The position numbers and the translations under genes are program-made. Source: Janthinobacterium sp. Marseille (GTDB lineage: Bacteria; Pseudomonadota; Gammaproteobacteria; Burkholderiales; Burkholderiaceae_D). From it: DNA of 64,000 nucleotides. The notes below the pieces were generated by a model. The model was not told where the DNA came from and searched no databases. It saw only the letters and a list, made by a program, of their open reading frames with translations. The DNA lies in contig NC_009659.1 of assembly GCF_000013625.1 (NCBI RefSeq), positions 496,001-560,000 on the forward strand, in the 5' to 3' direction. Below are positions 1,847-52,445 of this stretch, piece after piece. The stretch's first letter is position 1. Each line of letters begins with the position of its first letter.

Positions 1847-3211
1847 ATGACAAAGGATGCAATCAAGGCAGGCCGCTTAGTACGCGCGCCTGAAAATTTC
1901 CTGGACCCAGTAGTGGCACAGGAAATTACAGCAAATGGTTTGAGTGAAGAGCGCAGGGGCTTCCTGCGCAAAAGTTTTCTTGCAGCGAGTGCTGCAATGG
2001 CAAGTGGTGTCGGCTTTGCACAAGGCGGCGCGGCTGCCATCGGCGACGGCGATCCGAACATACTGAATCTCCCCGAGCATTCCACCACCCTTGGTCAGGC
2101 GGTAGCGACCAATGGTTATGGCGTGCCATCCAAATACGAAACCAATCTCTTGCGTCGCGAGTCGCCGGGACTGACACGTGTATCGGCGGCCTCGGTTTCA
2201 TTCGCGCCGCTGCAAGGCCTGTTCGGCATCATCACGCCCAGCGGCTTGCATTTCGAGCGCCATCACCAGGGTTGGCATGACATCGATCCGAGCAAGCATC
2301 GCTTCATGATCAATGGCCTGGTAAAGAATCCCAAGGTTTATACGATGGATGACCTGATGCGCCTGCCTTCGGTCTCGCGTATGCATTTCATCGAATGCGG
2401 TGCCAATACCGCGATGGAGTGGGGCAATGTGGCCGTGCCTACCGTGCAGTATTCGCATGGCATGCTGAGCTGCTGCGAATTCACCGGTGTGCCGCTGTCG
2501 GTATTGCTGGAAGACTGTGGTTACGACAAAAAGAATGGCAAATTCATCCTGGCTGAAGGTGCGGATGGTTCCAGCATGACGCGCACTATCAGCATGGATC
2601 GCGCGCTTGACGATGTGATCGTGGCATGGGGCATGAACGGCGAAATGCTGCGTCCGGAAAACGGTTATCCATTGCGCCTGGTCGTGCCCGGCGTGCAAGG
2701 CGTGTCCTGGGTCAAATGGCTGCGCCGCATCGAAGTCGGCGACAAGGAATACGGTACCAAGGATGAAGCAATCCACTATATCGATTCGATGCCGGATGGC
2801 ATGTACCGCCAGTACACCTCGATCCAGGAATGCAAATCGGTCATCACCACGCCATCGGCCGGCCAGATGCTGCTGGATAAGGGCTTCTACAACATCACCG
2901 GCCTCGCGTGGTCGGGCCGCGGCAAGATCAAGCGTGTCGATGTCTCGGTCGACGGCGGCCGCAACTGGCGCACCGCAAGACTGGAAGGCCCGGTCAACAC
3001 CAAGTGCCTGACGCGTTTCAATATCAACTGGGTGTGGGATGGTTCGCCGGTCGTGCTGCAATCACGTGCGATTGATGAGACCGGCTACGTGCAGCCCAAA
3101 ATCAATGAATTGCGCGCAGTGCGTGGCACGCGTTCCATCTATCACAACAACGCAATCCAATCGTGGAAAGTGTCGGAATCAGGCGAGGTGTCGAATGTAC
3201 AGGTTTACTAA
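1847..3211 (+). CDS. soxC: SoxC, molybdenum sulfane dehydrogenase subunit
   Basis: A 454-residue sulfite-oxidase-family protein. A twin-arginine leader (RRGFLRKSFLAASAAMA, residues about 38-55) indicates Tat export of the folded molybdoenzyme. The molybdopterin domain contains the Mo-ligand cysteine in FIECGAN and a characteristic WGMNGEMLRPENGYPLRL stretch; a Mo-co dimerisation domain forms the C-terminus (VDVSVDGGRNWRTA). With the dihaem partner SoxD it oxidises the protein-bound sulfane sulfur of SoxY-Cys-S-S- to sulfone, releasing six electrons. SD GGAG lies seven bases upstream. The soxD start overlaps its 3' end, indicating translational coupling. Confidence 0.96.
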   Translation: MTKDAIKAGRLVRAPENFLDPVVAQEITANGLSEERRGFLRKSFLAASAAMASGVGFAQGGAAAIGDGDPNILNLPEHSTTLGQAVATNGYGVPSKYETNLLRRESPGLTRVSAASVSFAPLQGLFGIITPSGLHFERHHQGWHDIDPSKHRFMINGLVKNPKVYTMDDLMRLPSVSRMHFIECGANTAMEWGNVAVPTVQYSHGMLSCCEFTGVPLSVLLEDCGYDKKNGKFILAEGADGSSMTRTISMDRALDDVIVAWGMNGEMLRPENGYPLRLVVPGVQGVSWVKWLRRIEVGDKEYGTKDEAIHYIDSMPDGMYRQYTSIQECKSVITTPSAGQMLLDKGFYNITGLAWSGRGKIKRVDVSVDGGRNWRTARLEGPVNTKCLTRFNINWVWDGSPVVLQSRAIDETGYVQPKINELRAVRGTRSIYHNNAIQSWKVSESGEVSNVQVY

Positions 3212-4271
3212 AACTGTCGTCGCGCTGCTGCTGGCGACAAGCGGCACGATGGCATTAGCGCAGGCGGCATATACGAATATTGGACGTCCGGCAACGGCGA
3301 AAGAAATTGCTGCGTGGGATATCGATGTGCGTCCCGACTTCAAAGGCTTGCCACCAGGCTCCGGTACCGTAGCCAAAGGCATGGCGGTGTGGGAAGGCAA
3401 GTGCGCATCCTGCCACGGTACCTTCGGTGAATCGAACGAAGTATTCACACCTATCGTCGGTGGCACCACCAAGGAAGATATCAAAAGCGGTCATGTAGCT
3501 GCCTTGTCGAACAACAAGCAGCCGCAGCGCACCACCATCATGAAGGTGCCGACGGTATCGACCTTGTGGGATTACATCAATCGCGCGATGCCATGGACTG
3601 CGCCGAAATCGCTGACGACGGAAGAAGTCTATGCGGTCACGGCTTACATCCTGAATATGGCGGAAATCCTGCCCGACGACTTCACCTTATCGGACAAGAA
3701 CATCGCTGAGGTGCAGCAGCTGATGCCGAACCGGAATGGCATGACGCGCAATCATGGCATGTGGGATATCAAGGGTAAGCCTGATGTGAAAAGCGTGGCT
3801 TGCATGAAGGATTGCAAAACCAGTACGGATTTGCGTTCGACCCTGCCTGAGCCATCGCGGAATGCACACGGCAATATCCAGCTGCAAAACCGTACCTTCG
3901 GTGAAGTACGCGGTGTAGATACCACCAAGCCTGCATCGACCAAACCGATCTCGGCAATTTCCGCTGACCAGAAGCTGGCAATGGCTACACCGGCCAAGCC
4001 TGCGGCTCCGGCCAAAGTGGATGGCCTGGCATTGGCCAAGCAATATGCATGTGTGGCTTGCCATGGCGTCAGCAACAAAATCATCGGTCCCGGCTTTAAT
4101 GAAATCGCGGCCAAGTACAAGGGCGATGCAGCAGCACCGGCCGCACTGACAGCGAAGATCAAGAACGGCAGCACCGGCGCGTGGGGCCCTATCCCGATGC
4201 CGGCACAGGCACATGTCAAGGATGAAGACATCAAGACGCTGGTCGGCTGGATCATCGGTGGTGCGAAGTAA
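3195..4271 (+). CDS. soxD: SoxD, dihaem cytochrome c subunit of sulfane dehydrogenase
   Basis: A 358-residue protein beginning MYRFTKTVVALLLATSGTMA with a cleavable signal peptide. Two c-type haem motifs are visible: CASCHG near residue 75 and CVACHG near residue 285, separated by an Ala/Pro/Lys-rich linker. The frame is open further upstream, but the ATG at 3195 gives the signal peptide and overlaps the soxC end by 17 bp, the usual arrangement for coupled subunits. It passes electrons from SoxC to downstream cytochromes or to the adjacent pseudoazurin. Confidence 0.95.
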   Translation: MYRFTKTVVALLLATSGTMALAQAAYTNIGRPATAKEIAAWDIDVRPDFKGLPPGSGTVAKGMAVWEGKCASCHGTFGESNEVFTPIVGGTTKEDIKSGHVAALSNNKQPQRTTIMKVPTVSTLWDYINRAMPWTAPKSLTTEEVYAVTAYILNMAEILPDDFTLSDKNIAEVQQLMPNRNGMTRNHGMWDIKGKPDVKSVACMKDCKTSTDLRSTLPEPSRNAHGNIQLQNRTFGEVRGVDTTKPASTKPISAISADQKLAMATPAKPAAPAKVDGLALAKQYACVACHGVSNKIIGPGFNEIAAKYKGDAAAPAALTAKIKNGSTGAWGPIPMPAQAHVKDEDIKTLVGWIIGGAK

Positions 4272-4359: not shown

Positions 4360-4794
4360 ATGTACAAACTGGTAAGCGCTATGACCCTGGCATTGTTTTC
4401 ATTGAGCGTGTCGGCTGCCGAGCATCAGGTGAAGATGGTAAATAACGGCAAAGACGGCATGATGTCATTCGAGCCTACCTTCCTTAAAGCTGAAAAAGGT
4501 GACACTGTTAAATTCATCAAAACTGATGCAGCGCACAACAGCGCATCCGTCCTGGTACCTGCTGGTGCGAAGGAATGGAAAGGCAAGATGGATGAAGAAA
4601 TTGTTGTGTCGCTCACGCAAGATGGCGTGTATGTTTATGTTTGCGACCCACATAAAACCATGGGCATGGCAGGCGTGATCCAGGTCGGCAAACCGACTAA
4701 TCTGGATGCAGCCAAAGCCGAAGCCGACAAGCTGTCGAAGAGCTTTGTCATGAACAAGGATCGTTTGACCAAAGCACTGGCGCAAGTGAAGTAA
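4360..4794 (+). CDS. Pseudoazurin-type blue copper protein
   Basis: A 144-residue cupredoxin. Signal peptide MYKLVSAMTLALFSLSVSAA, then the fold with type-1 copper ligands: His in DAAHNS and Cys, His, Met in VCDPHKTMGM. The C-terminal helical tail (LDAAKAEADKLSK...) is typical of pseudoazurins. SD GAGGAG at 4349-4354. Pseudoazurins are small periplasmic electron carriers. Its place between soxD and soxY suggests it accepts electrons from the Sox complex and delivers them to a terminal oxidase or reductase. Family call firm, partner inferred. Confidence 0.92.
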   Translation: MYKLVSAMTLALFSLSVSAAEHQVKMVNNGKDGMMSFEPTFLKAEKGDTVKFIKTDAAHNSASVLVPAGAKEWKGKMDEEIVVSLTQDGVYVYVCDPHKTMGMAGVIQVGKPTNLDAAKAEADKLSKSFVMNKDRLTKALAQVK

Positions 4795-4846
4795 GTGGCA
4801 GGCGTGCCATCTCGCGATGGCATCAATTTTTCAAGAGGAGAATCTA

Positions 4847-5327
4847 ATGAATCAGAAACGACGTGACGCGTTGCGTATTGCAACGGTACTCGGATTGGCT
4901 ATTTCAGCCGGCATATTGAAGCCTACGGACGTACTTGCAGCCTACGGACGTACTTGCAGCTGATTGGAAATCCAGTGGCTTCGATGCTAAATCGCTGCAG
5001 GAAGCATTGGCTGCACTGGGTGCGGACAAAGCGGCAATCAGCACCGATATCGCCGTCAACGGTCCTGATATCGCGGAAAACGGTGCAGTCGTTCCAGTCT
5101 CGGTATCGAGCAATGTACCGAACACCGAATTCATGGCAATCCTGGTGGAGAAAAACCCGACACCACTGTCCGCCACCATGACCCTGCCGGCCGGCACGGA
5201 AGCCAACGTCAGTACCCGCGTCAAGATGGGCGGTACCTCGAACGTGCATGCACTGGTCAAGGCAAACGGCAAGTGGCTGATCGCCAGTAAAGAGATCAAG
5301 GTCACTCTCGGCGGCTGCGGCGGTTAA
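4847..5327 (+). pseudogene. soxY: soxY, sulfur-carrier subunit, frameshifted by a 19-bp tandem duplication
   Basis: From ATG 4847 (SD AGAGGAG) the reading begins MNQKRRDALRIATVLGLAIS, a Tat leader, and stops at TGA after 39 codons. A 19-bp unit is present twice (4921-4939 and 4940-4958). Removing one copy restores ...KPTDVLAADWKSSGF... in frame with the rest of SoxY, which ends in the conserved swinging arm GGCGG whose Cys carries the sulfur intermediates. The downstream part is intact from a possible TTG at 4935, but would lack the twin-arginine leader that exports SoxY and its partner SoxZ. Either a real inactivating or reversible mutation, or a sequencing/assembly artefact. Confidence 0.9.
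4921..4958. repeat. 19-bp perfect tandem duplication in soxY
   Basis: gcctacggacgtacttgca occurs twice head to tail with no intervening base. Because 19 is not a multiple of three it shifts soxY by one base. A structure of this kind can arise and be lost by replication slippage or recombination between the copies. Confidence 0.97.
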
Positions 5328-5369
5328 TCACGCTGCCAGTCATCAACACCAATTTTTGAGGGAAATATC

Positions 5370-5681
5370 ATGGGAAATCCGATGCGCATACGCGCCAATG
5401 CAACTGGCGACGTCGTAGAAGTCAAAGTCCTGATGCGTCACGATATGGAAACCGGCCAGCGCAAAGACGCTTCCGGCAAAGCCGTACCGGCGCACTTCAT
5501 CCAGACACTGACCGCCAAATGCAATGACAAGGTCGTGCTCGATATGTTGATGGGTACGTCGATCTCGAAAGATCCATTCTTGTCGTTCAAGTTCAAGGGT
5601 GGTGCCAAAGGCGACAAGATCGCGATTACCTGGACCGACAACACCGGTGACAGCCGTACCGATGAAGCAGCAGTTTCCTGA
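5370..5681 (+). CDS. soxZ: SoxZ, sulfur-carrier complex subunit
   Basis: A 103-residue immunoglobulin-like protein with no signal peptide: MRIRANATGDVVEVKVLMRH at the start, FKGGAKGDKIAITWTDN near the end. SoxZ forms the SoxYZ heterodimer, scaffolding the SoxY carrier arm. It is normally exported with SoxY through SoxY's Tat leader, so the soxY frameshift also bears on this protein. SD GAGGGA precedes ATG 5370; the second Met at 5382 is a possible alternative. It lies 42 bp after soxY. Confidence 0.96.
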   Translation: MGNPMRIRANATGDVVEVKVLMRHDMETGQRKDASGKAVPAHFIQTLTAKCNDKVVLDMLMGTSISKDPFLSFKFKGGAKGDKIAITWTDNTGDSRTDEAAVS

Positions 5682-5799
5682 AGCCGAGTGTAGCTAAGCA
5701 ATGTAGTTAAGAAATACACGCAAGCAAACGGGAGAAGCAGTACCCGAGTGATACGAATGTGGCGCCAGACCGCATCCACTTAAATTTGAGGAGGGCGTA

Positions 5800-6603
5800 A
5801 TGAGACAGAGAAGCTTGTATCTATTTGCAGCGGTCGCGATCAGCGCAACTGCATCTGTAATGGCGCAATCGACTACAGATGAGATTGCCAAGTATCGCCA
5901 GCTGCTGGCTGACGGTAATCCCGCTGAGTTATGGGAAATGCGCGGTGAAGAATTATGGCGCACCAAAGCCGGTCCGAAAAATGTCAGCCTGGAACAATGC
6001 GATCTGGGCAAGGGCGCCGGCGTGGTGAAAGGCGCTTATGCCGAATTGCCGCGTTACTTCAAGGACGTCAACAAGGTCATGGACCTGGAACAGCGGCTGA
6101 TCTATTGCCGTATGAACCTGCAAGGCCTGACGCGCGAGCAGGCGGTGAAAATGCCGTTTGGTTCCGCCGGCAAGCCATCCGATATCGAACCGATGGTGGC
6201 CTACATCACGTCTGAATCGCGCGGCATGAAGATGTCGGTGTCGACTGCGCATCCGGAAGAAAAGCGTGCCTACGAAATCGGCAAGAAGATTTTTTTCTAT
6301 CGTGCCGGTTCTCATGACTTTGCCTGTGCTACCTGCCATGCGGTCGATAACCAGCGTATCCGCCTGCAGGACCTCCCCAACTTGCTGAACAAGAGCAATG
6401 CCCAGGCCGCCTATGGGACCTGGCCTGCTTATCGCGTCTCGCAAGGCGAAGTGCGCACCATGCAGCATCGCCTCAACGATTGCTTCCGTCAGCAACGCTT
6501 CCCGGAACCGCTGTACGGCTCTGACGTGATCACGGCCGTGACGATGTTCCTGGCCAAGAGCGCAGACGGCGGTGTCTATAACGGCCCAGCGCTGAAACGA
6601 TAG
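5800..6603 (+). CDS. soxA: SoxA, L-cysteine S-thiosulfotransferase haem subunit
   Basis: A 267-residue cytochrome with signal peptide ending VMA|Q. One CxxCH haem motif is present (CATCH, near residue 180), and the active-site Cys that becomes the cysteine-persulfide haem ligand is visible in HRLNDCFRQQRFPEP. Only a lone Cys (LEQCDLG) stands where dihaem SoxA proteins carry their first haem motif, so this is the monohaem-type SoxA. With SoxX it attaches thiosulfate to the SoxY carrier cysteine. SD GAGGAGG precedes ATG 5800; soxX follows after 9 bp. Confidence 0.95.
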   Translation: MRQRSLYLFAAVAISATASVMAQSTTDEIAKYRQLLADGNPAELWEMRGEELWRTKAGPKNVSLEQCDLGKGAGVVKGAYAELPRYFKDVNKVMDLEQRLIYCRMNLQGLTREQAVKMPFGSAGKPSDIEPMVAYITSESRGMKMSVSTAHPEEKRAYEIGKKIFFYRAGSHDFACATCHAVDNQRIRLQDLPNLLNKSNAQAAYGTWPAYRVSQGEVRTMQHRLNDCFRQQRFPEPLYGSDVITAVTMFLAKSADGGVYNGPALKR

Positions 6604-6612
6604 GGAGGCGAT

Positions 6613-7227
6613 ATGAAAAAAATAGGCATCATGATAGCGACGGTCGCAACCATAGCCGGTTGCGCCACAGTGGCGGCGGATACCGACTATGGCAAAGAAA
6701 CCATTGCCATGCTGAAGGCGGACTTCAAATCTAAAGGTCCGGCTACGATGGAACGTATGCTGAACCAGGACGAAGCACAGCAATTGTGCAGCGAGTATCC
6801 GAGCGACGCGCCGAAAGACAAGGCGGCTGCACTGGAAGCTTCGCAACTGAAGCAGGTTAAGTATCCTGCTGACGGCAAGTACCTGGGCGATTGGAAAGAA
6901 GGTGAAAAAATCGCACAGAACGGTCGCGGCATGCAATCGTCGGACGCGGTAGGCAGCGTCAATGGCGGTAACTGCTACGCCTGCCACCAGATCAGCAAGG
7001 CGGAAATTTCCTTCGGCAATATCGGTCCTTCCCTTTATCAGTACGGGAAAATCCGTGGCCAGAGCGAAGACATGCTGAAGTACACCTGGGCCAAGATCTA
7101 TAACGCACAGGCTTTCACCGCATGTTCCAACATGCCGCGCTTCGGCCATAACGGCATCCTGCAAGAGAAGCAAATCAAGGATGTCATGGCCTTGCTGCTG
7201 GATCCGGCTTCGCCCGTCAATAAGTAA
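6613..7227 (+). CDS. soxX: SoxX, monohaem cytochrome c of the SoxAX complex
   Basis: A 204-residue protein with one haem motif (CYACH) and a downstream axial Met in SNMPRFG. Compared with short SoxX proteins it has a long N-terminal extension of about 90 residues before the haem domain. The leader MKKIGIMIATVATIAGCATV contains IAGC, a plausible lipobox, so the protein may be lipid-anchored; cleavage by signal peptidase I after VAA is the alternative. It partners SoxA and takes electrons released on thiosulfate conjugation. SD GGGAGG at 6603-6608. Confidence 0.93.
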   Translation: MKKIGIMIATVATIAGCATVAADTDYGKETIAMLKADFKSKGPATMERMLNQDEAQQLCSEYPSDAPKDKAAALEASQLKQVKYPADGKYLGDWKEGEKIAQNGRGMQSSDAVGSVNGGNCYACHQISKAEISFGNIGPSLYQYGKIRGQSEDMLKYTWAKIYNAQAFTACSNMPRFGHNGILQEKQIKDVMALLLDPASPVNK

Positions 7228-7343
7228 GCAATCCGAAGTTCGAAGCGCAGTGCTGCCTGCTGCGCTTCGTCCTTCATCGCCTTGTCGCGCGACTTGCCAA
7301 TGCAAGGATGGCGAGGTCGTCTACCGAACAATCAGAGGAAAAA

Positions 7344-9062
7344 ATGGGTTTGAATCGTCGTGAGTTCATTCAGGTCATGGGTATCGCAGCTGCAGGCGGT
7401 ATGTTGCTGGATTCCAAGGGCGCGCTGGCGGCACCTTCCGCCGCCAAACTGTACGACGTGCCGCGTTTCGGCAATGTCCACTTTTTGCACTTCACCGATT
7501 GTCATGCGCAATTGAAACCAATTTACTTCCGCGAACCGAATGTCAACCTTGGCATCGGCGACGCGGTAGGGCGCATGCCGCATCTGGTCGGCGAAAAATT
7601 ACTGAAGGAAATCGGCGTCAAACCGAATACGCCGGAAGCTTATGCTTTTACTTACCTGAACTTTGAAAAAGCTGCGCAAACCTACGGCAAGGTCGGTGGC
7701 TTTGCGCATTTGTCGACACTCGTCAAACGCATGAAGGTTGGTCGTCCCGGCGCCTTGCTGCTGGATGGCGGCGATACCTGGCAGGGTTCGGCCACTGCCT
7801 TGTGGACTAACGGCCAGGATATGGTCGACGCCTGCCTGGAGCTGGGTGTCGATGTCATGACTGCGCACTGGGAAATGACGCTGGGCGATAAGCGGGTCAA
7901 GGAAATCGTTGAAAAAGATTTCAAGGGCAAGGTTGATTTCGTCGCGCAAAACATTAAGACCACCGATTTTGGCGATCCTGTATTCCCCCCGTATGTGTTG
8001 AAGGAAATGAATGGCGTACAGATCGCCATCATCGGCCAGGCTTTCCCGTATACGCCGATTGCGAATCCACGCTACCTGGTACCGGAATGGAGTTTCGGTA
8101 TCCAGGAAGAGAATATGCAAAAGATGGTCGACGAAGCGCGCAGCAAGGGTGCCAAAGTTGTCGTCGTGCTCTCGCATAACGGCATGGACGTGGACCTGAA
8201 AATGGCATCGCGTGTACGTGGTATCGACGCCATCATGGGCGGCCATACGCATGACGGTATGCCGGCACCGGTCATCGTCGGCAATCCGGGCGGCAAGACC
8301 CTGGTCACGAATGCCGGCAGCAATAGCAAATTCCTCGGTGTGCTCGACTTCGATGTGCGCGGTGGCAAAGTCCAGGGTTATAAATATCGTCTGTTGCCGG
8401 TGTTCTCCAACTTCCTGCCGGCCGACAAGAATATGGATGCATTGATCAACAAGATCCGTGCCCCTTATGAATCCAAACTGAATGAACGCCTCGCGATGAC
8501 GGAAGGTACCTTGTACCGTCGCGGCAATTTCAACGGCACCTTCGATCAGCTGATCGTCGACGCGTTGATGGACGTCAAAGGTGCGGACATCGCATTCTCG
8601 CCGGGCTTCCGCTGGGGTACGTCCTTGTTGCCGGACAGTCCTATCCTGATGGAACACCTGATGGACCAGACCGCGACCACCTATTCATACAGCACGCTGA
8701 CGGATATGAGCGGCTCCACGATTAAAACCATTCTGGAAGACGTGGCAGACAATCTGTTCAATCCGGATCCTTATTACCAGCAAGGTGGCGACATGGTGCG
8801 TGTCGGTGGCATGAGTTACACCATCGCACCAAAAGAGAAGATGGGTGCACGTATCCAGGATATGCGCCTGGACGGCAAGCTGATCGATGCGGGCAAGACT
8901 TACAAGGTCGCGGGCTGGGCCCCAGTCGCCGAAGGCGCATCCGGCGAACCGGTATGGGATGTCGTCGCACAATGGTTGCGCACCAATAAAGTAGTTACAC
9001 CGCGCAAACTGAACACACCACGCATCGTCGGCATGGATGGCAATCCCGGCATTGCGAATTGA
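7344..9062 (+). CDS. soxB: SoxB, S-sulfosulfanyl-L-cysteine sulfohydrolase
   Basis: A 572-residue protein of the metallophosphoesterase/5'-nucleotidase superfamily. It has a twin-arginine leader (NRREFIQVMGIAAAGG). Metal-site motifs are visible in order: HFTDCHAQ, GGDTWQGS, SHNGMD and GGHTHDG, for a dinuclear Mn centre. The C-terminal 5'-nucleotidase domain follows. SoxB hydrolyses the SoxY-bound sulfonate to release sulfate. ATG 7344 is chosen over upstream in-frame codons because AGAGGA precedes it closely and the Tat motif starts immediately. The rhodanese gene follows after 11 bp. Confidence 0.97.
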   Translation: MGLNRREFIQVMGIAAAGGMLLDSKGALAAPSAAKLYDVPRFGNVHFLHFTDCHAQLKPIYFREPNVNLGIGDAVGRMPHLVGEKLLKEIGVKPNTPEAYAFTYLNFEKAAQTYGKVGGFAHLSTLVKRMKVGRPGALLLDGGDTWQGSATALWTNGQDMVDACLELGVDVMTAHWEMTLGDKRVKEIVEKDFKGKVDFVAQNIKTTDFGDPVFPPYVLKEMNGVQIAIIGQAFPYTPIANPRYLVPEWSFGIQEENMQKMVDEARSKGAKVVVVLSHNGMDVDLKMASRVRGIDAIMGGHTHDGMPAPVIVGNPGGKTLVTNAGSNSKFLGVLDFDVRGGKVQGYKYRLLPVFSNFLPADKNMDALINKIRAPYESKLNERLAMTEGTLYRRGNFNGTFDQLIVDALMDVKGADIAFSPGFRWGTSLLPDSPILMEHLMDQTATTYSYSTLTDMSGSTIKTILEDVADNLFNPDPYYQQGGDMVRVGGMSYTIAPKEKMGARIQDMRLDGKLIDAGKTYKVAGWAPVAEGASGEPVWDVVAQWLRTNKVVTPRKLNTPRIVGMDGNPGIAN

Positions 9063-9073
9063 GGTAGTTGGGT

Positions 9074-9658
9074 ATGAAGAAATTGATTGCAGCATTGCTG
9101 CTGGGTGCGACTTGTTTCTCGGCATTTGCTTTCGATGCGACGCAAGTGCCGGACATCAAGCAGACCAAGGCAGCGCTCTACCTCGATGCGAAAGAAGCCT
9201 ACGCACTCAAGCAAAAGATGGCGGACAAGGCTTACTTCGTCGACGTACGGACCCGTGCAGAAATCTCGTATGTCGGTATGTCGACGATTGTGGACGCCAG
9301 TATTCCGTATGTCGAACACCCGGATGATGCGCCATGGGATGACAAGAACGGTCGCTTCAAGCTGGACGTCAATAGTGATTTCGGACCGGAGCTGGCGCGT
9401 CGTATGACGGCTGCCGGCCTCGGTAAAAGCGATACCGTGATCCTGATCTGTCGTTCCGGTGATCGCAGTTCGCGTGCCGCCAATTTGTTGACGGACCTCG
9501 GTTACACCAAGGTGTATACGGTAGTTGATGGCTTCGAAGGCGACTTGGCAAAGACCGGGCCGCAAGCGGGACAGCGCGTGGTGAATGGCTGGAAGAATGC
9601 CGGTTTGCCATGGAGTTACAAGCTGGATAAGAGTAAATTGTATTTCCCCAAGTACTGA
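9074..9658 (+). CDS. Periplasmic rhodanese-domain sulfurtransferase
   Basis: A 194-residue protein: signal peptide MKKLIAALLLGATCFSAFA, then one rhodanese domain (YFVDVRTRAEI...) with the active-site loop ICRSGDRSSRAA carrying the catalytic Cys, and DGFEGD near the C-terminus. It probably moves sulfane sulfur in the periplasm as an accessory to Sox oxidation. SD GAGGTAG lies ahead of ATG 9074; a TTG at 9068 is in frame but less likely. Same-strand spacing of 11 bp after soxB suggests co-transcription. Confidence 0.88.
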   Translation: MKKLIAALLLGATCFSAFAFDATQVPDIKQTKAALYLDAKEAYALKQKMADKAYFVDVRTRAEISYVGMSTIVDASIPYVEHPDDAPWDDKNGRFKLDVNSDFGPELARRMTAAGLGKSDTVILICRSGDRSSRAANLLTDLGYTKVYTVVDGFEGDLAKTGPQAGQRVVNGWKNAGLPWSYKLDKSKLYFPKY

Positions 9659-9714
9659 AGCAGGTGTCGTGTCATTGCACGACGTTTGGCTGAAATCACT
9701 TCTAGGTGCGCAGC

Positions 9715-10230
9715 ATGTGTAACCGCCTGATCCTGTTTGTATCGCGCTGCCTGCTATTGGCCAGTATGGCCGTGGGCGGCTGGGTATATGCCGCAGATGT
9801 CAGGCCGGGCGATACGCCGGTACTGCCAACATTAACTACACTGGATGGCAAGAGTATTCATCCTGCCAGCTTGCGCGGCAAGGTCGTGGTCATCAGTTAC
9901 TTCGCTTCCTATTGCCCGTTCTGTGCGAATGAAGCACCGAAATTGCAAAAGCTGTATAGCAAGAATACGGACAAGTTGATCGTCATCGGCGTCAACATCG
10001 AAACCAAAGATCCGCAGCAAAAAGACAAAGCCTTGAAATGGGTGCAGAAGTATCAATTGACGCATCCGGTCACGACGGATTACCTGGCGTTGGAACGTGT
10101 ACTGGGCAAACGCCAGGGCTTGCCAGTCAATTATGTATTCGATAAACGCGGCATGTTGCGGCGCGTTGATGTAGGCGAAATCTTCGATGAAGACTTTGAC
10201 GATATAGCCAAGTTCGCACAGCAGGATTGA
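9715..10230 (+). CDS. TlpA-like thioredoxin-fold protein
   Basis: A periplasmic thiol-disulfide oxidoreductase of about 171 residues. A signal anchor or peptide (LILFVSRCLLLASMAVGGWVYA) precedes a redoxin/AhpC-TSA-type domain with the CxxC motif YCPFCANEAP and a cis-Pro loop GLPVNYVFD. ATG 9715 is preferred; GTG 9706 is in frame. TlpA/SoxS/SoxW-type thioredoxins keep SoxY and cytochrome cysteines reduced, so a maintenance role is inferred. Its stop overlaps the next start, indicating coupling with the second thioredoxin-like gene. Confidence 0.85.
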   Translation: MCNRLILFVSRCLLLASMAVGGWVYAADVRPGDTPVLPTLTTLDGKSIHPASLRGKVVVISYFASYCPFCANEAPKLQKLYSKNTDKLIVIGVNIETKDPQQKDKALKWVQKYQLTHPVTTDYLALERVLGKRQGLPVNYVFDKRGMLRRVDVGEIFDEDFDDIAKFAQQD

Positions 10231-10763
10231 TGCATATGAGATTAGCTGTCCTGTGGCTCTTATGCCTGCTGCTGAGCGGCAATGCGGCAGCCGATAACAA
10301 GCCGATCATGGTCCCCATGCTGAGTGACCTGACCGCTGACGCGGTACAGGCGCAACGCGAAGACAAACCCATCATCCTGTTCTTTTCGTTGCCGGGCTGC
10401 CCCTTCTGTCATGTGGTGCGGAATAATTATCTGCAGCCTTTACTGCGCGATAGCAAGCCGAAGCAACGTCCTGTCATCCGTGAAGTCGATATCAGCAGTA
10501 TGCAAAGCCTGCGGAATTTTGATCGCACAAGCGGCAGTCCGCGCAGTGTCGCGCAAAGGTATAAGGTGATCGCTGCGCCTACTGTGATCTTCGTGGACTC
10601 TGCCGGTTGCATGCTGGCACCACCTATTGTTGGTGGTGATATCGCCGGTGTTTATGGCGGTTACCTGGACAACGCTTTTGATATGTCCGCGCGAAAAATT
10701 GCCGCTGCAAAGAAGCCGGGTGGGACGGTCAAAGGTGCAGTGAAAGAATGTCCGCCACCATGA
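10230..10763 (+). CDS. SoxW-like thioredoxin-fold protein
   Basis: About 177 residues: a signal peptide (LAVLWLLCLLLSGNAAA), then a thioredoxin-like domain with FSLPGCPFCHVVR as the CxxC site and a cis-proline segment AAPTVIFVDS. ATG 10230 overlaps the preceding TGA; ATG 10236 is equally possible after the AGGA at 10223. This pattern resembles SoxW and thioredoxin-fold proteins that reduce periplasmic sulfur-carrier thiols. It closes the sox transcription unit, followed by a strong terminator. Confidence 0.8.
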   Translation: MHMRLAVLWLLCLLLSGNAAADNKPIMVPMLSDLTADAVQAQREDKPIILFFSLPGCPFCHVVRNNYLQPLLRDSKPKQRPVIREVDISSMQSLRNFDRTSGSPRSVAQRYKVIAAPTVIFVDSAGCMLAPPIVGGDIAGVYGGYLDNAFDMSARKIAAAKKPGGTVKGAVKECPPP

Positions 10764-10783
10764 CATGCGACGCTTTCAGTAAG

Positions 10784-10816
10784 GGCAGCCACAGGGATGG
10801 CTGCTTTATTTTTCTT
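10784..10816 (+). terminator. Rho-independent terminator at the end of the sox unit
   Basis: GCAGCCA (10785-10791) pairs with TGGCTGC (10798-10804), followed by TTTATTTTTCTTT. Confidence 0.85.
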
Positions 10817-49952: not shown

Positions 49953-52445
49953 ATGGCGAATGCAATGAAGAAACCCGCGAAAACCCAAACGCTCACCGCG
50001 AGCAAAGCCAAATCGGCCGCTGCGGTGAAGTCGAGTAAAACTGTTGAGAAGAAAGTAGTCGCTGCAAAGTCGGCCGGTCAGGCAAAAGCCGTGGCTGCCA
50101 AGACCAAAGTAACAAGCTCGCCGAGCAAAGCGGCGGCGAAAACGCCTGCAGCCAAACTTTCACCCAAAGTTGCTGCAAAGCCGGTATCAGTGCAATCGAA
50201 AGCCCCTGTGACAAATAAGAAATCTGAAGTTAAGCCTGCTAGCAAGTCAGCAAAAGTCGAGCCAAAAGTCGAGTCGCGTCCTGGCGTAAACGTCATGATC
50301 ACGGCGACCGTCAGCCAGACTACCGACGCCGCCACCCTGGCTGCGATCGACACGTCGGGTTACATCCTGCCGTCGATCAAGGTACCGGGTCGTCGCGGCC
50401 GTAAGCCAAAAGAATTCCAGCCTGAGAACGATGAAATCGCGGCATTGAATGCGGTCGAACGCGCAGAACTCAAAGCCGTCGACAAAGCGAAAGCCAAAGA
50501 TCGCAAGGCCAAAGAAAAAGCATTGTTGAAGGACGCCTTCTCGTCCGATACGGAAGCCAGCGAAGAAGAACTCGAAGCGCGTCGCCAGAAACTCAAGACG
50601 CTGATCAAGTTCGGTAAGGAACGCGGCTTCCTGACCTACGCAGAGATCAACGATCACCTGCCGGAAAACATCATTGATCCGGAAGCGATTGAAGGCATCA
50701 TCGGTACCTTCAATGACATGGGTATCGCTGTCTACGAACAGGCACCGGATGCAGAAACCCTGCTCCTGTCCGATAACGTGGCAACCGTTGCCAGCGATGA
50801 TGAAGCCGAAGCTGCTGCGGAAGCGGCACTCTCGACCGTCGACTCCGATTTCGGCCGTACTACCGATCCTGTGCGTATGTACATGCGCGAAATGGGTTCG
50901 GTCGAACTGTTGACACGCGAAGGCGAGATCGACATCGCAAAACGTATCGAAGACGGCCTGCGTGACATGATCCAGGCGATCTCCGCATGCCCGACCACGA
51001 TTGCAGAAATCATTGCTGCCGCTGAACGCATCTCCAAGGACGAAGCCAAGATCGACGAAATCGTCGACGGCCTGGTCGATATGGATGCAGCGGAACCTGT
51101 CGTCGCTCCTCCTGCTCCAGCCGCTTCTTCTGACGATGAAGAAGACGAAGAAGAGGAAGAGGAAGAAGAAGAGGAAGAAGAAGAAACCACAGCCGCTTCC
51201 GGCGCTGCGGGTTTCTCGAGCGAACAGCTGGAACAGCTGAAGCGTGATTCGCTTGCCAAATTCTCGACCATCGCCCAGCAATTCGACAAGATGCGCAAAG
51301 CGTTCGAGAAAGAAGGCTACAACTCGAAACCTTACGTCAAGGCACAAGAGATCATTTCGAATGAACTGCTCAGCATCCGCTTCACCGCAAAAGTCGTCGA
51401 GAAATTGTGCGACACGCTGCGCGGTCAAGTTGATGAAGTGCGTCACATCGAAAAACAAATCCTTGATGTTGCAGTGAATCGTTGCGGCATGCCACGTGGC
51501 CACTTCATCAAAGTCTTCCCGGGCAATGAAACCAATCTGGACTGGGTTGACGGCGAAGTGAACGGCAAGCATGCATACAGCGTCGTGTTGGCACGTAACG
51601 TCCCGACCGTCAAAGAACTGCAGCAAAAACTGATCGACCTGCAAGCACGTGTTGTCTTGCCTTTGCCTGACCTGCGCGCCATCAACAAGAAGATGGCTGC
51701 CGGTGAAATGAAGGCCCGCAAGGCAAAACGCGAAATGACGGAAGCCAACTTGCGTCTGGTTATTTCGATTGCGAAAAAGTATACTAACCGCGGTTTGCAA
51801 TTCCTCGATTTGATCCAGGAAGGCAATATCGGTTTGATGAAGGCAGTCGACAAGTTTGAATATCGTCGCGGCTTCAAATTCTCGACTTATGCAACCTGGT
51901 GGATTCGTCAGGCCATCACCCGTTCGATCGCCGATCAGGCCCGCACCATCCGTATTCCGGTGCACATGATCGAAACGATCAACAAGATGAATCGCATCTC
52001 GCGTCAGATCCTGCAGGAAACCGGTGCAGAACCGGATCCGGCAACCCTGGCGATCAAGATGGAAATGCCGGAAGACAAAATTCGCAAGATCATGAAGATC
52101 GCGAAAGAGCCTATTTCGATGGAAACACCGATAGGCGACGACGACGATTCGCATCTGGGCGACTTCATCGAAGACAACAACACATTGGCTCCGGCCGATG
52201 CAGCGTTGCACGCTTCGATGCGCGGTGTAGTCAAGGACGTACTCGATTCCCTGACACCACGCGAAGCAAAAGTCTTGCGTATGCGTTTTGGTATCGAAAT
52301 GTCGACCGATCACACGCTGGAAGAAGTGGGCAAGCAATTCGACGTTACACGTGAGCGTATTCGCCAAATAGAAGCAAAGGCATTGCGCAAACTGCGTCAC
52401 CCATCACGGTCAGATAAATTGAAGAGCTTCCTGGAAGGTAATTAA
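49953..52445 (+). CDS. rpoD: RNA polymerase primary sigma factor RpoD
   Basis: About 830 residues. A Lys/Ala/Ser-rich, histone H1-like tail (about the first 110 residues) precedes sigma region 1.1 ([19 protein letters not shown]). Region 1.2 follows ([11 protein letters not shown]), then a spacer with a long poly-Glu run near residue 390. Region 2 has [21 protein letters not shown] and the [14 protein letters not shown] helix; regions 3 and 4 include [20 protein letters not shown]. It directs housekeeping transcription. The ATG at 49953 is chosen; 49965 is possible. tRNA-Ile2 follows after 17 bp. Confidence 0.96.

Follow-up and report, generated by a model that had tools for sequence, protein, structure and literature searches.

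A 19-bp tandem duplication separates the leader from the mature protein in the only soxY gene of Janthinobacterium sp. Marseille

The window, by which we mean the whole stretch of DNA analysed, comprises 64,000 nucleotides (positions 496001-560000) of the genome of the strain originally called Janthinobacterium sp. Marseille, a single contig of 4,110,251 bp; in the accessible text of PMC5670224 the strain is called 'H. glaciei subsp. Marseille'. A sox cluster lies within the first 12 kb of the window. It starts with genes for a metallo-beta-lactamase-fold protein, a DsrE-like protein, and an ArsR-type regulator, followed by soxC, a soxD-like cytochrome, and pseudoazurin, and continues with soxY, soxZ, soxA, soxX, soxB, a rhodanese, thioredoxin-like proteins, a second ArsR-type regulator, and sulfur-transport-like proteins (Table 1). 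The thioredoxin-like genes 3' of soxB (window positions 9601-10800) share 65-88.5% identity with H. contaminans, mostly below that of the sox genes.

Table 1. Features of the sox cluster and of the soxY lesion, in window coordinates
Feature	Position	Strand	Basis
soxC, intact	1847..3211	+	TIGR04555
soxD-like cytochrome c, named by its position beside soxC	3192..4271	+	weak cytochrome hits, no model above cut-off
Pseudoazurin gene, between soxD and soxY	4360..4794	+	TIGR02375, above cut-off
Approximate soxY-soxZ tract, window and H. contaminans against KBW02	4801..5700		three-way comparison
soxY 5' fragment, twin-arginine leader frame, 38 codons and TGA	4847..4963	+	translation; like leaders in frame in 28 relative loci
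TTGAAGC homology, 5' border of the unit	4916..4922	+	sequence
19-bp unit, copy 1	4920..4938	+	repeat in the sequence
soxY 3' fragment, mature frame with GGCGG arm, leaderless	4920..5327	+	translation, TIGR04488, PF13501
19-bp unit, copy 2, identical to copy 1 and missing in aligned relatives	4939..4957	+	repeat and alignment
TTGCAGC homology, 3' border	4954..4960	+	6/7 like 4916-4922, AGC exact
soxZ, intact; start 406 nt past the premature stop	5370..5681	+	TIGR04490, 132 bits against a cut-off of 76
soxA, intact	5800..6603	+	TIGR04484
soxX, intact	6613..7227	+	TIGR04485
soxB, intact	7308..9062	+	TIGR04486

Between the twin-arginine leader of soxY, which begins at the ATG at 4847, and the mature protein, the gene is interrupted by a perfect head-to-tail duplication of the 19-bp unit AGCCTACGGACGTACTTGC at 4920-4957. 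The self-match at period 19 amounts to 22 bases (4920-4960), so the start of the array may be phased from 4920 to 4923, in four equal phases, and the tandem repeat that an earlier note on this DNA had placed at 4921-4958 is an equally valid phase of the same array. As 19 leaves a remainder of 1 when divided by 3, the leader and mature SoxY fall into different frames. Translation of both frames confirms the break between them that the earlier note had described: the peptide from the ATG is MNQKRRDALRIATVLGLAISAGILKPTDVLAAYGRTCS, 38 residues including the RR, with the stop at 4961-4963, and the first listed start codon in the mature frame is the TTG at 4935. The carrier arm had been called otherwise intact, and indeed the mature frame is open to the C-terminal GGCGG, with the mature domain scoring above the cut-off of both NCBIfam TIGR04488, SoxY_true_GGCGG (157 bits, cut-off 125), and PF13501 (110.8 bits, cut-off 28.4). 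The twin-arginine leader is out of frame with this domain, whereas in the 28 relative loci compared the two are in frame.

SoxY is exported by the Tat system and carries the leaderless SoxZ along. SoxYZ is the periplasmic carrier, in which a cysteine of SoxY holds the sulfur intermediates (PMC9959259 and PMC2864759, in the parts available). Profile searches of the whole genome found one SoxZ and, with PF13501, one SoxY, which is the split gene itself; they gave no second soxZ or soxY, and in particular no other intact soxY, for which the earlier note had proposed a search. The alternative routes searched were TsdA-like genes and DoxD. There is no DoxD in the genome and no TsdA-like gene besides SoxA, PF21342 having matched soxA alone, in two stretches of one frame. 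With one soxY, one soxZ, and neither a TsdA-like gene nor DoxD, the expected phenotype is a loss of thiosulfate oxidation.

For comparison, 49 relative loci were collected, 19 from a scan of named genomes and 30 kept after 100 genomes, among them that of the window, had been searched with PF13501, which matched in 53 of them. Through a blastn match to mature soxY, 28 of the 49 loci were readable at the leader, the other 21 being too divergent in DNA; 23 of the 28 are distinct, and L029, L039, L044, L049, and L050 are second copies of other loci. All 28 loci, which belong to other species, have a single copy of the 19-bp unit with the RR in frame, against two copies in this genome, and the 210 bases that surround the leader contain in no case an exact tandem duplication with a period of 8-59. 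The comparison with the soxY of relatives that the earlier note had suggested thus shows the single-copy form to be ancestral. The top protein match, among the best 120 of at least 7999 scored, is a 153-aa SoxY of 95% identity with an intact leader. Among the SoxY matches listed from the 100-genome search there are no internal stops, and only two have open frames below 150 aa, the window's own (135 aa) and that of genome G024 (132 aa, 61 bits). The latter was considered as a broken relative SoxY and rejected, as it is a distant SoxY-like protein and not a split true SoxY. It lies at 1692-2090 of locus L081 (G024:C24:29000-33000), and the PF13501 match covers part of the model.

Of 12 congeners (completeness 90-100%), four yielded a SoxY (G001, G004, G009, and G011), including H. 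arsenitoxidans AS8 (G001, 3,784,322 bp), whose soxY is intact. Judged by SoxY, the Sox pathway seems to be patchily distributed across the genus. A metagenome-derived Herminiimonas genome encodes under half of the thiosulfate pathway, according to the available portion of PMC7406229, and taken with the 4 of 12 congeners this suggests that losing the pathway is not exceptional among its members.

A search of all 4.11 Mb of the genome that tolerated up to two mismatches found AGCCTACGGACGTACTTGC nowhere else. A survey of 464 kb (the window and 20 stretches of 20 kb, ~11% of the genome) for exact tandem duplications of period 10-300 gave six, of which the soxY unit is the longest, the other five having units of 10-12 bp; the control, an order-1 Markov model examined for periods 10-100, contained one, of period 11. 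The soxY duplication is not due to chance, nor is it a genome-wide feature. A GAA trinucleotide array of 16 copies (82% match) was also seen, at window positions 51138-51185. At the borders of the duplicated unit, AGC is matched exactly and TTGnAGC in 6/7 positions. This short homology (AGC/AGC) suggests replication slippage, although three exact bases could be chance: the nascent strand would have realigned from TTGCAGC back to TTGAAGC, with the result that 19 bp were copied twice. At the second of the two border sites, H. contaminans has TTGCTGC and strain KBW02 has TGGCAGC, indicating that the border homology varies between species.

Apart from the duplication, soxY shows no further decay. 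Mature SoxY differs from that of H. contaminans (L002) by 11 synonymous and 0 nonsynonymous changes, and its 120 residues are identical in the window, H. contaminans, and KBW02. When changes were assigned to branches with KBW02 as outgroup, over 72 bases of the leader and 360 of the mature part, the window's branch received six in soxY, all of them synonymous, where ~17.8 nonsynonymous changes would be expected if the gene had been neutral along the whole branch. The six synonymous and zero nonsynonymous changes suggest that the lesion is young; as a rough bound, which assumes neutrality after the break and rests on six changes, the broken period would take up less than ~17% of the window's branch. 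The dN/dS values of nine other genes against H. contaminans range from 0.005 to 0.06, so selection acted on the pathway until recently. Both the recent date given to the lesion in the earlier note and its description of the remaining sox genes as healthy agree with these results, the former through the undecayed mature protein and the branch counts, the latter through dN/dS and the model matches, with the SoxD-like protein alone lacking a model above cut-off.

The first 10.2 kb were also compared three ways in segments of 300 bases. In 27 of 34 segments, H. contaminans and KBW02 share a base that the window lacks at more sites than the window and H. contaminans share one against KBW02. The pattern flips over 4801-5700, where 27, 25, and 20 sites unite the window and H. 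contaminans against KBW02, compared to 3, 6, and 13. The segments at 3601 (15 to 11) and 3901 (27 to 17) also lean to the window with H. contaminans, those at 6001 and 6601 are ties, and 5701-6000 is near-identical in all three. The identity of soxY-soxZ to H. contaminans is 93-98%, and dS against this species is 0.13 in mature soxY compared to 0.7-0.8 in soxB and soxC. This suggests that a soxYZ tract was likely exchanged between the lineages of the window and H. contaminans, in either direction, before the duplication arose.

We consider it probable that one recent slippage event knocked out the strain's only soxY, the duplication being known from one assembly. An error of assembly or sequencing, in which case the living strain would have one copy and an intact soxY, would equally predict the single copy in the 28 relatives and the undecayed mature protein, but an exact 19-bp insertion flanked by short homology is a typical product of slippage, and the surrounding sequence seems clean; we regard such an error as unlikely. 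We picked 63 ORFs in the matching stretch of H. contaminans (G004, on the same contig as L002) and compared them with the window: 41 are intact, 12 lack a match above 60% identity, and 10 were flagged. Among the 51 of 63 that matched, soxY is the sole flagged ORF judged to be really split and the sequence seems otherwise clean, this judgement excluding ORFs 254549-254803 (aligned for 54 of its 84 residues), 243206-243700 (+), and 274332-274910 (-). The sequence here thus appears generally good, with some room left for a local assembly error. By position, three flagged ORFs lie on the strand opposite soxR, soxA, and soxB. Three candidates for other lesions were rejected after a residue-by-residue reading: ORF 225845-226864 runs off the end of the window, ORF 271227-272234 has a stop five residues short of the relative's end, which is an ordinary gene end, and ORF 267737-268333 matches in two frames, with 42% identity over its first 62 residues and 78% over residues 76-198, and was judged to have an over-long start in the relative rather than a split in the window.

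The earlier note had gone further and read the duplication as possibly reversible by loss of one copy, making it an on/off switch for thiosulfate oxidation. In such a switch, the two-copy state would be an 'off' form maintained within a mixed population, and the pathway would turn on when a copy is lost. The identical copies and the intact mature frame do keep reversion possible, and reversible microhomology-mediated tandem duplications have been described in fungi (PMC13207564, accessible part), but the copy number is constant across the 28 loci compared. Furthermore, we found neither a multi-copy array nor many such loci: soxY has just two copies, and such repeats are not enriched in the 464 kb, which hold five other duplications of 10-12 bp. 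In Xenorhabdus, tandem duplications of 26-116 bp in lrp belong to a set of mutations that, in the judgement of the authors, do not represent phase variation, as stated in the portion of PMC6786866 available. One genome, a single-copy ancestor, invariant relatives, and 464 kb that are not repeat-rich thus provide no evidence for a switch, which we regard as very unlikely. Slightly more doubtful still is its extension, that a reversible one-/two-copy soxY makes the Sox pathway a bet-hedging trait in a facultative sulfur oxidiser, with exchange of the soxYZ tract as a second rescue. Least probable of all is that the gene still works through a +1 ribosomal shift in the 41-nt frame overlap (4920-4960), since although neither frame meets a stop within the duplication and the product, a SoxY whose linker is slightly changed, would be exported, by eye there is no known +1 frameshift signal such as that of prfB type, the stop context being AGC TGA T, and the compared relatives require no shift.

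On the reading that we favour, the mutation arose by slippage, is recent and probably null, and would abolish SoxY export and thiosulfate oxidation. Translation from the ATG at 4847 would yield the 38-residue leader peptide and then stop, while any mature SoxY, made from a weak internal start such as the TTG at 4935, would be leaderless and therefore cytoplasmic. SoxZ, having no leader of its own, would be retained in the cytoplasm with SoxY, and the 406 untranslated nucleotides before soxZ may reduce soxZAXB expression through polarity. What remains of the Sox pathway would then be present yet idle. A copy could be lost, as from any short tandem duplication, but we claim no evolved switch. 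H. arsenitoxidans AS8 is reported to oxidise 1 mM thiosulfate but not to grow on thiosulfate as sole energy source (PMC5670224, in the text available), suggesting that loss of thiosulfate oxidation may cost a heterotroph little.

The lesion is not mentioned in the accessible parts of PMC5670224, PMC2864759, and PMC7356093; most of the subscription literature is outside this scope, and we do not claim that the lesion is unpublished. As the core sox proteins pass their models (the SoxD-like protein apart), a reading by gene content would score Sox as complete, though the sole carrier is split, and soxY illustrates well the value of examining frame integrity when pathways are called. The strain also lends itself directly to measuring the reversion rate of a short tandem duplication in a setting where an energy pathway hinges on reversion.

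Compared with known systems, the gene resembles SoxY of the SoxYZ carrier (TIGR04488, PF13501) in its mature sequence, its GGCGG arm, its position before soxZ, and the leader fragment just upstream, but differs in that no single frame encodes an exported protein. The lesion itself is most readily set beside two kinds of duplication, each taken from the accessible part of its source. Like the microhomology-mediated tandem duplications of fungi (PMC13207564), it went from one copy to two, placed head to tail from a single-copy ancestor, with a frame break in a gene and short homology at the borders that could be due to chance; it differs in occurring in a bacterium, where its reversion by loss of a copy is plausible on general biological grounds. 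With the spontaneous duplications in lrp of Xenorhabdus (PMC6786866) it shares the form of a short tandem duplication within a coding sequence, whereas here the unit is 19 bp, the gene is metabolic, and the duplication is found in one genome only.
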